From: Medicago truncatula
Lineage: Eukaryota > Streptophyta > Magnoliopsida > Fabales > Fabaceae
DNA length: 64,000 bases
Reading direction: 5' to 3'
Assembly: GCF_003473485.1 (NCBI RefSeq)
Contig: NC_053048.1
Location: forward strand, 26,343,255 to 26,407,254
Every line of letters begins with the position of its first letter. Within the stretch, counting starts at the first letter, position 1. The translations under genes were made by a program, and so were the position numbers. Shown here piece by piece: positions 29,644 to 64,000 of this stretch. The notes beneath the pieces were generated by a model. It was not told where the DNA came from, ran no database searches, and worked only from the letters and a program-made list of their open reading frames with translations.

Positions 29644-30721
29644 ATGGAGCAGAAGGTAAGTAACAATATTTACTTTAATTTGATATATTTTTGAATCATC
29701 AATGAAAAAATATATAATGTCTTTTCCATTCCTCTTAACTAAGCCAATTAGTTCTAGTAATTACCATTAAATTAAATGCTTGAATTTTGATTAAGCAACT
29801 TTCTTTTCTTGAACTTATGCAGGTTGCTATAATGAGACTCAAGGTTGACCTTCAATGTAGAAAATGCTGTAAGAAAGTCAAGAAGATCCTTTGCAAATAC
29901 CCTCGTGAGTCTTTCAATAATAATTCTTTTACTCTCATATTTTATTATTTTTCCTTATACATATTTTTGTATGGTGGTGTTAATATATTATTAGGCTATA
30001 GTTCCCATTAAATATAGACTTTGTATTGAAAATTGACAAAATTATATCAACAAGTATTTTTTTTCCTATTCAATTTCACCTAATTTTAGTTTCTTGATTT
30101 TTTTTTTAAACCTTCTTAATTTGTTTATTTTTACAATACCTTCTTAATTTTTTAGTATTTGCGTTGTTTATGTTGTTGCAATTTTCATGAATGAAAGAAA
30201 TTCGAGATCAAATATATGATGAGAAGAATGGTATAGTGACCATAAGAGTGGTGTGCTGCAGCCCAGAGAAGGTAAGAGACAATATTTGTTGTCAAGGGGG
30301 TGGTACCATCAAAAGCATAGAAATAGTTGAACCACCAAAACCCAAGCCAGCACCTGAGAAGCCCAAAGAGCCAGAAAAAAAGCCCGTGCCCGAGGCAAAG
30401 CCGATTGCACAACCTGGCCCGCCTAAACAAAATCCAAGTCCAGCTCCAGCTCCGGCACCAGCTCCGGCTCAGGCACCGGCTCCACTTCCTTCCGCGGCTG
30501 CACCAGCTGTAATGTTTCCTCAGACAGCGCCAATGTCCATTCTTGCATATCCTTCGCCAGTTGTTCCTTACGGGCATGTTTATGGTCCTGGACAAGGTGG
30601 CCCCCCACAGTTTTATGGGAGGCCCGTGTATGATAGTTATGGATGGAGTGGGCCTTGCTATGTAGGTCATCACCACGATTGCTTGCGCGAAGAAGAGGCG
30701 TCGACATGTACAATAAGTTGA
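29644..30721 (+). CDS. HIPP: heavy-metal-associated isoprenylated protein, Pi21-like (unit 1, intact)
   Basis: Exons 29644-29655, 29823-29904 and 30198-30721 join in phase to 205 residues. The first exon encodes only MEQK. An HMA domain covers about residues 5-70, with the metal-binding C-x2-C as CRKC (16-19), then KYPQIRDQIYDEKNG and VVCCSPEKVRD. A Pro/Lys-rich linker (PPKPKPAPEKPKEPEKK, then PAPAPAPAPAQAPAP) leads to a Gly/Tyr-rich tail. The last four residues, CTIS, form a CaaX box for farnesylation. HMA domain plus CaaX defines HIPPs, which bind metals and attach to membranes. The closest described type is rice Pi21, a proline-rich HMA protein whose loss gives blast resistance; similarity of role is inference. 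This is the only copy in the window with an ATG exon. The repeat breakpoint falls inside its first intron at 29752. Confidence 0.88.
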
Positions 30722-30930
30722 AGGGTACTCGTGGAGGAGAATGGTTATGTAGGTGAAGAGATTTTATATAATAATAACTTTCTTTGATAAATAAAAAGTG
30801 TAATATATGAGGTGCGTTTCAAAATTCACCAAAACTAAGGAAGCATCAAAGTTTAGAGAGCGTTTATCGATTATTTGTCAACATGGTCTTGTCAAAATTC
30901 ACCATATCCCATGTTTATAGTACAATTTTA

Positions 30931-30998
30931 TATCTTGAACTAAATGTTGTGTAAATGAGATCAATATCTTGAACTAAATGTTGTGTAAATGAGATAAA
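30931..30998. repeat. 34-bp direct repeat, two copies, in HIPP 3' region
   Basis: TATCTTGAACTAAATGTTGT and the following 14 bases are repeated immediately with a 34-bp period. The repeat is also in unit 2 at 47446-47513 and begins again at the window end. Confidence 0.85.
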
Positions 30999-62500: not shown

Positions 62501-62798
62501 ATGTTTGACATTTGTTTTGTCAATTTAGGTATGGATTCAATGGCAAGAAGGCAATATTCTACCACTGATAGATCCAGAAATATATGATCATATCCATCAT
62601 AAATATATTACGAGGTCCATACACATAGGGCTTCTATGTGTACAGGAATTTTCCATAGACAGACCTACCATGGCGGCTGTAATTTCTATGCTGAACAGTG
62701 ACATTGTAGATCTTCCTCCTCCAAAGAAACCTGCATTCATCCTGAAGCAGAATATGCTGAGCTCGGTGTCGCCTGAAGAAAACAACGATGACTTCTAG
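59553..62798 (+). pseudogene. G-type lectin S-receptor-like kinase with 1-nt frameshift (unit 2)
   Basis: Exons 59553-60852, 60941-61051, 61280-61431, 61507-61717, 61963-62200, 62298-62444 and 62529-62798 correspond to the unit 1 gene. The extracellular domains, transmembrane segment, catalytic Lys, HRD and DFG are identical. In exon 6 a run of four T (45842-45845 in unit 1) is three T here (62369-62371). Reading then changes from [13 protein letters not shown] to [12 protein letters not shown] and stops at 62439. This removes the C-terminal kinase lobe beyond the APE-like motif, so the product should be inactive as a kinase, although the lectin ectodomain and membrane anchor would remain. 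A single-base homopolymer loss is also the commonest long-read sequencing error. Its last exon ends at the unit 2/unit 3 junction with the same stop. Confidence 0.8.
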
Positions 62799-64000
62799 TA
62801 ATTACCATTAAATTAAATGCTTGAATTTTGATTAAGCAACTTTCTTTTCTTGAACTTATGCAGGTTGCTATAATGAGACTCAAGGTTGACCTTCAATGTA
62901 GAAAATGCTGTAAGAAAGTCAAGAAGATCCTTTGCAAATACCCTCGTGAGTCTTTCAATAATAATTCTTTTACTCTCATATTTTATTATTTTTCCTTATA
63001 CATATTTTTGTATGGTGGTGTTAATATATTATTAGGCTATAGTTCCCATTAAATATAGACTTTGTATTGAAAATTGACAAAATTATATCAACAAGTATTT
63101 TTTTTCCTATTCAATTTCACCTAATTTTAGTTTCTTGATTTTTTTTTTAAACCTTCTTAATTTGTTTATTTTTACAATACCTTCTTAATTTTTTAGTATT
63201 TGCGTTGTTTATGTTGTTGCAATTTTCATGAATGAAAGAAATTCGAGATCAAATATATGATGAGAAGAATGGTATAGTGACCATAAGAGTGGTGTGCTGC
63301 AGCCCAGAGAAGGTAAGAGACAATATTTGTTGTCAAGGGGGTGGTACCATCAAAAGCATAGAAATAGTTGAACCACCAAAACCCAAGCCAGCACCTGAGA
63401 AGCCCAAAGAGCCAGAAAAAAAGCCCGTGCCCGAGGCAAAGCCGATTGCACAACCTGGCCCGCCTAAACAAAATCCAAGTCCAGCTCCAGCTCCGGCACC
63501 AGCTCCGGCTCAGGCACCGGCTCCACTTCCTTCCGCGGCTGCACCAGCTGTAATGTTTCCTCAGACAGCGCCAATGTCCATTCTTGCATATCCTTCGCCA
63601 GTTGTTCCTTACGGGCATGTTTATGGTCCTGGACAAGGTGGCCCCCCACAGTTTTATGGGAGGCCCGTGTATGATAGTTATGGATGGAGTGGGCCTTGCT
63701 ATGTAGGTCATCACCACGATTGCTTGCGCGAAGAAGAGGCGTCGACATGTACAATAAGTTGAAGGGTACTCGTGGAGGAGAATGGTTATGTAGGTGAAGA
63801 GATTTTATATAATAATAACTTTCTTTGATAAATAAAAAGTGTAATATATGAGGTGCGTTTCAAAATTCACCAAAACTAAGGAAGCATCAAAGTTTAGAGA
63901 GCGTTTATCGATTATTTGTCAACATGGTCTTGTCAAAATTCACCATATCCCATGTTTATAGTACAATTTTATATCTTGAACTAAATGTTGTGTAAATGAG
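62793..64000. repeat. Tandem repeat unit 3, first 1.2 kb (cut by window end)
   Basis: The junction TTCTAG|TAATTACC recurs exactly as at 46267. The sequence then follows the HIPP region of units 1 and 2 to the window end inside the 34-bp direct repeat. No difference from unit 2 was noticed. Confidence 0.95.
62864..63762 (+). pseudogene. HIPP copy lacking exon 1 (unit 3)
   Basis: Exons 62864-62945 and 63239-63762 repeat exons 2 and 3 of the intact gene at 29644, again 65 bp after the kinase stop codon and again without the MEQK exon. The HMA motif, Pro-rich linker and CTIS end are unchanged. As for unit 2, only internal initiation (ATG at 62873) or a fused transcript could give protein. Confidence 0.85.

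Follow-up and report, generated by a model that had tools for sequence, protein, structure and literature searches.

The Medicago truncatula reference contains a head-to-tail repeat whose units are nearly identical, which raises the question of whether the plant itself carries these copies, and in what number, or whether they were written by the assembler. We consider, with a probability of roughly 0.75, that a real tandem duplication of very recent origin took place at this locus in an inbred plant, and that its assembly into three units still contains errors of the long-read consensus. The window, which is the whole stretch of 64,000 nucleotides that was analysed, is C7:26343255-26407254 of the 429.9-Mb assembly (42 contigs). 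The flanks were read for 60 kb downstream and 10 kb upstream, and positions beyond the window are given in the same numbering (window-equivalent). The cited part of PMC10885650 describes the Mt5.0 assembly as 42 scaffolds (longest 64.76 Mb, N50 56.24 Mb) from 109x PacBio reads, and the species as self-fertile. Among the papers listed by a literature search, none concerns this locus by title or abstract opening.

The window and the downstream sequence together contain exactly three head-to-tail units of ~16.5 kb each:

29752..46266, plus strand: unit 1, 16515 bp (self-BLAST and three-way alignment)
46267..62792, plus strand: unit 2, 16526 bp (self-BLAST and three-way alignment)
62793..79325, plus strand: unit 3, of which 62793..64000 lies in the window and the rest is window-equivalent (self-BLAST, downstream reading and three-way alignment)

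Self-BLAST of 29752-47474 against 46267-64000 aligns 17736 columns with 0 mismatches, 6 gap openings and 15 gap bases, and 29752-30959 matches 62793-64000 over 1208 bases at 100%. These alignments bear out the first-pass annotation, which had claimed two full head-to-tail units and the start of a third, in both coordinates and direction. Unit 3 is completed beyond the window and the array stops at 79325/79326 (window-equivalent), giving 49.6 kb of near-identical units in total. Identity among the three units is 99.8-99.9% in coding and non-coding sequence, and it is uniform across the full 16.5 kb, including the intergenic sequence. There are no gap letters (N) in the 334 kb around the array and none between the copies. 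The three units, their junctions, the cuts in the genes and the list of differences are read directly from the assembly.

Three genome-wide probes (unit start, kinase and unit middle) were applied, and for each the best candidates only were scored. Every probe finds three places at 100% among these candidates, all within the array; the next-best scored matches are at 76% for the unit start and 73-78% for the kinase, and for the unit middle they belong to a 325-bp repeat family. With these three probes, no fourth unit copy was found at high identity elsewhere or on unplaced contigs (best 40 of 212 kinase candidates and best 40 of 3965 middle candidates scored). The repeat family is represented within the unit by one short element:

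39434..39758: short interspersed repeat of ~325 bp, with at least 38 further places at 94-97% on C1 to C8 (best 40 of 3965 candidates scored)

The boundaries of the units lie within two genes, a HIPP-like gene on the left and a receptor kinase on the right:

29739..29765, no strand: native left edge, within intron 1 of the HIPP-like gene (splice sites taken from the sequence itself)
46256..46280, no strand: unit 1/unit 2 junction, where the last kinase exon meets HIPP intron 1 at 2 bp (TT) of microhomology
62782..62806, no strand: unit 2/unit 3 junction, identical in sequence to that of units 1 and 2

On the right, the breakpoint interrupts the last kinase exon 14 codons upstream of the stop. 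Within the 334 kb, the junction 25-mer occurs twice and each native edge once; the 27-mer across 29739..29765 has a single occurrence. The same junction found twice, together with single native edges, indicates that the copies are not separated by a gap between haplotype contigs. With adjacent near-identical copies, a single junction type and single outer edges, the array probably belongs to the recent tandem segmental duplications. Duplication between pre-existing repeats was rejected as the route, as the flanks of the breakpoints, compared by eye, have just TT in common.

The breakpoints divide the HIPP gene unequally among the units:

29644..30721, plus strand: complete HIPP-like gene on the unit 1 side (exon 1 29644-29655, exon 2 29823-29904, exon 3 30198-30721)
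46338..47236, plus strand: HIPP copy of unit 2, exons 2 and 3 only, with the same bases as unit 1

Exon 1 (MEQK, 29644-29655) lies outside the repeat, the left breakpoint being in intron 1, and exon 1 and the upstream region are present for unit 1 only and missing in units 2 and 3. The spliced protein has 205 aa and ends in CTIS, a C-terminal CaaX box, prenylation being putative. Residues 8-80 match the PDB chain named HIPP6 (E 1.6e-5); the protein has no Pfam HMA family match at E 0.1, and an NCBIfam search with it gave nothing useful.

The receptor kinase is cut at the opposite side of the unit:

43005..46272, plus strand: unit 1 copy of the G-type lectin S-domain receptor kinase, with B_lectin, S_locus_glycop, PAN_2, kinase and a cut DUF3403 (the open frame begins at 43005, the gene itself does not)
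62369..62369, plus strand: single-base deletion in a T run of the unit 2 kinase exon, a frameshift that is probably a consensus error

Four Pfam families (B_lectin, S_locus_glycop, PAN and kinase) are matched above their cut-offs by the unit 1 exons, which end in ENNDDF followed by a stop, without the native last 14 residues. Since the unit 2/unit 3 junction is the same as the unit 1/unit 2 junction, the kinase lacks its native tail in both units 1 and 2, and the unit 2 kinase is also frameshifted by the deletion at 62369. The native tail is found in unit 3 only, which runs on with YSVNLVSISDIHGR. The C-terminal tail (DUF3403), an accessory part of the S-domain receptor kinase, is covered in unit 1 at profile positions 1-26 of 45 (21.3 bits, below the cut-off of 28.9) and is complete in unit 3 (1-45 of 45, 35.9 bits).

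Between the two cut genes lie two F-box sequences:

32901..35331, plus strand: F-box A, with an interruption of ~1.6 kb at 33224-34855 (a related F-box peptide in tblastn; Pfam F-box and LRR matches)
33224..34855: unrelated sequence of ~1.6 kb that splits F-box A
40812..42255, plus strand: F-box B, with a frame change near 41287-41312 in the first exon (Pfam matches and tblastn)
81749..83358 and 89676..89999 (window-equivalent), minus strand: two more F-box sequences of the same kind, downstream of the array

As judged from their broken frames, F-box A and F-box B are probable pseudogenes. The breaks are absent from the differences among the units and are therefore common to all three, which means that they predate the amplification if the units are real. 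The first annotation had ascribed the same set of HIPP, F-box A, F-box B and receptor kinase to every unit; all four recur, but not as equals, with HIPP exon 1 in unit 1 only, the kinase tail in unit 3 only and a frameshift in the unit 2 kinase. Its phrase "live copy-number expansion of a receptor-kinase/HIPP cluster" is overstated, as the duplicated gene content is largely cut, frameshifted or already broken.

Relatives of the kinase (at least 85 matches; best 40 of 212 candidates scored) form a dense group at ~26.48-26.80 Mb of C7 with 69-81% identity; C2, C4 and C8 have smaller groups. The dense group on C7 places the array at the edge of a receptor-kinase cluster, in which two further duplications are found:

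165773..186185 (window-equivalent): older direct duplication with 10-11 kb spacing, pieces at 96.6-97.2%, substitution-rich
305356..319276 (window-equivalent; C7:26648610-26662530): second tandem array, seven units of 1987-1993 bp with 4 variable columns or blocks

The second array starts 226 kb further on from the 16.5-kb array and consists of copies of the 5' (B_lectin) portion of a different S-domain receptor kinase, encoded on the minus strand. The kinase probe gives six equal matches at C7:26650603-26661004, spaced by 1993 bases once and by 1988 bases four times, which correspond to units 2 to 7, and a longer match at 26647619-26649072 extends into unit 1. This 1988-bp array is a second recent tandem amplification within the same cluster.

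The three-way alignment of the 16.5-kb units reveals 13 differing places, which are 11 single-base run indels, one AT microsatellite and one substitution:

31360..31423 (unit 1) and 47876-47949 (unit 2), no strand: AT microsatellite, with lengths of 64, 74 and 82 bp in units 1, 2 and 3, respectively
41840 (unit 1), 58368 (unit 2) and 74897 (unit 3), plus strand: the sole substitution of the array, C, C and T, in F-box B

All of the run indels are in A or T runs, with longer alleles of 4, 5, 5, 6, 7, 8, 9, 10, 10, 12 and 13 bases; unit 1 is the odd one out at one of them, unit 2 at four and unit 3 at six, which fits equal rates (p = 0.21). Units 1 and 2 differ at 6 sites, all of them indels in runs or in the microsatellite (an alternating run of 64 and 74 bp, earlier counted as 31 and 36 repeats). 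With 0 mismatches, the earlier description of the differences as indels confined to such sequence is accurate for this pair; over three units it no longer applies, as unit 3 adds one substitution outside the window. The T of unit 3 at 74897 is also present in two relatives outside F-box B, namely F-box A of unit 1 and a downstream minus-strand F-box, and the C at 41840/58368 may be a change common to units 1 and 2. A fair alternative is a C-to-T change in unit 3, as the C sits in a CpG. The substitution is one site of modest weight, and it could be an error.

Long A/T runs mutate faster than average. In Arabidopsis, the ratio of substitutions to indels among spontaneous mutations is ~7 to 1.3 (values of Ossowski, cited in PMC10731980). 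Compared with this plant ratio, 11 indels among 12 changes give p = 1.4e-8, or p = 0.04 with a tenfold higher indel rate. Five of the 11 run indels are in runs of at most 7 bases, and these runs alone have 5 indels to 1 substitution (p = 0.0005). Such an excess over the plant mutation ratio, with nearly half of the indels in short runs, suits consensus error, and most of the indels are probably errors of the long-read consensus.

For repeat controls, we used pairs of at least 200 bases and at least 95% identity in the 334 kb of continuous sequence. One such pair bounds an element ~15.6 kb past the array:

94898..104498 (window-equivalent): probable young LTR retrotransposon with 2.3-kb LTRs

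The probable LTRs (94898-97265 and 102168-104498) have TG...CA ends with C runs flanking both sides. An LTR pair is by nature two physical copies. This one differs by 9 single-base indels, 1 AT microsatellite and 2 substitutions. Its spectrum does not differ from that of the array (Fisher p = 0.59), though its indel density is higher (1.9 versus 0.22 per kb of copy). Because this probable LTR pair has the same spectrum, an indel bias cannot tell a real duplication from a false one. The two alternatives earlier drawn from an indel-only spectrum, a very young amplification or an artefact, were the right ones, but the inference was incomplete. The seven-unit 1988-bp array is not indel-rich (2 variable substitution columns, one single-base and one 5-bp indel; Fisher p = 0.08), which indicates that repeats in this assembly are not uniformly error-prone. 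Three neighbourhood pairs are substitution-rich, with 89:8, 63:12 and 10:1 substitutions to indels (Fisher against the array, p = 2e-9, 5e-7 and 1e-4, respectively). Further pairs, outside the Fisher comparison, have 9:0 (93691/127831), 9:3 (94363/128546), 1:0 (113836/125909) and 8:1 (169813/180224). The indel bias of the array reflects little true divergence plus consensus error in a repeat-dependent manner, the control being a small one of a single LTR pair.

It is unlikely that the plant has one unit from which the assembler wrote three by separating reads that differ in their errors. The indel-only comparison of units 1 and 2, and the share of single-base run indels over three units (11 of 13), would suit such an event, and assemblers of error-rich long reads may duplicate falsely; in the cited part of PMC9516828, Canu on PacBio CLR reads has the most duplicated k-mers. 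However, a gap-free junction must derive from some read, and the LTR pair has the spectrum of the array. Retained haplotypes are unlikely in a self-fertile species. The gapless contig, the clean and identical junction with 2 bp microhomology found twice, the substitution of unit 3 and the selfing habit together favour real DNA.

The copies are probably present in the plant, with three as their candidate number. A real tandem array with a copy number other than three (two, or four and more) is possible, though less likely. Near-identical units totalling 49.6 kb were hard to count with the reads of the time, and with one substitution to distinguish them the inner units need very long reads for anchoring. 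According to the cited part of PMC5518131, the older A17 reference of M. truncatula shows 2 copies of a CRP gene for which qPCR gave an estimate of 12 and coverage one of 25.5, and one assembly method in this species overstated a tandem gene. Against a miscount stands the result of the three probes, which detected no unit copy outside the array among the best candidates scored. The probabilities of the best explanation and its rivals overlap, a wrong copy number being compatible with real duplication.

An old duplication is ruled out by the presence of one substitution in three units and by the substitution-rich neighbouring pairs. The one substitution corresponds to ~2900 generations (95% range ~70 to 16000; star tree, Arabidopsis rate), and zero substitutions between units 1 and 2 set an upper bound of ~13000 generations (Arabidopsis rate). 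Identity alone cannot tell youth from homogenisation, which, if any, would make the array look younger. Nevertheless, an older duplication kept identical by gene conversion, for which this age would be too young, is quite improbable, as the identity extends evenly over the full 16.5 kb, intergenic sequence included, and other pairs in the neighbourhood have diverged.

For a recent duplication, the best reading of the order of events is the following. A break or template switch would have joined the last exon of the S-domain receptor kinase to HIPP intron 1 at 2 bp of microhomology to give two copies, and an unequal exchange between these identical copies would have produced the third unit, reusing the same junction. 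The outer edges would thereby retain HIPP exon 1 and the region upstream of it on one side and the kinase tail on the other, and at each inner junction a HIPP copy lacking exon 1 would follow a kinase that has lost its native last 14 residues. Both HIPP intron 1 and the intron that precedes the last kinase exon have phase 0, so a readthrough that skips this exon would be in frame. It is conceivable, as a long shot, that the junction is a fresh gene-fusion site, with a candidate readthrough transcript for an in-frame receptor-kinase/HMA-like chimera at each inner junction and a block copy number that may still vary between plants. Such a chimera would miss the end of the kinase domain.

If real, the array is a case of block copying near its starting point, at the edge of a receptor-kinase cluster and with both breakpoints readable. 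Gene counts would then overstate the gain, as the carried content is largely cut or already broken, and a pseudogene label for the frameshifted unit 2 kinase is premature ahead of a read check. Indel-only differences between copies in a long-read reference are not by themselves proof of false duplication.

The event is probably an ordinary recent tandem duplication of a known kind at the edge of an S-domain receptor-kinase cluster. The EPSPS duplication of Kochia scoparia is similarly a block of several plant genes repeated a few times in tandem, with three to eight EPSPS copies; in contrast to the present breakpoints, which lie within two genes and share 2 bp of microhomology, the cited part of PMC6808082 credits a transposon and describes herbicide selection. 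Homotype false duplications (PMC9516828, cited part) resemble the array in their adjacent copies and error-like differences, whereas the array has no gap between copies, a clean junction twice and one substitution. The CRP3710 cluster (PMC5518131, cited part) likewise comprises recent near-identical tandem copies in M. truncatula, and assemblies miscounted it; it belongs to another gene family and chromosome, and was validated by read depth and qPCR.
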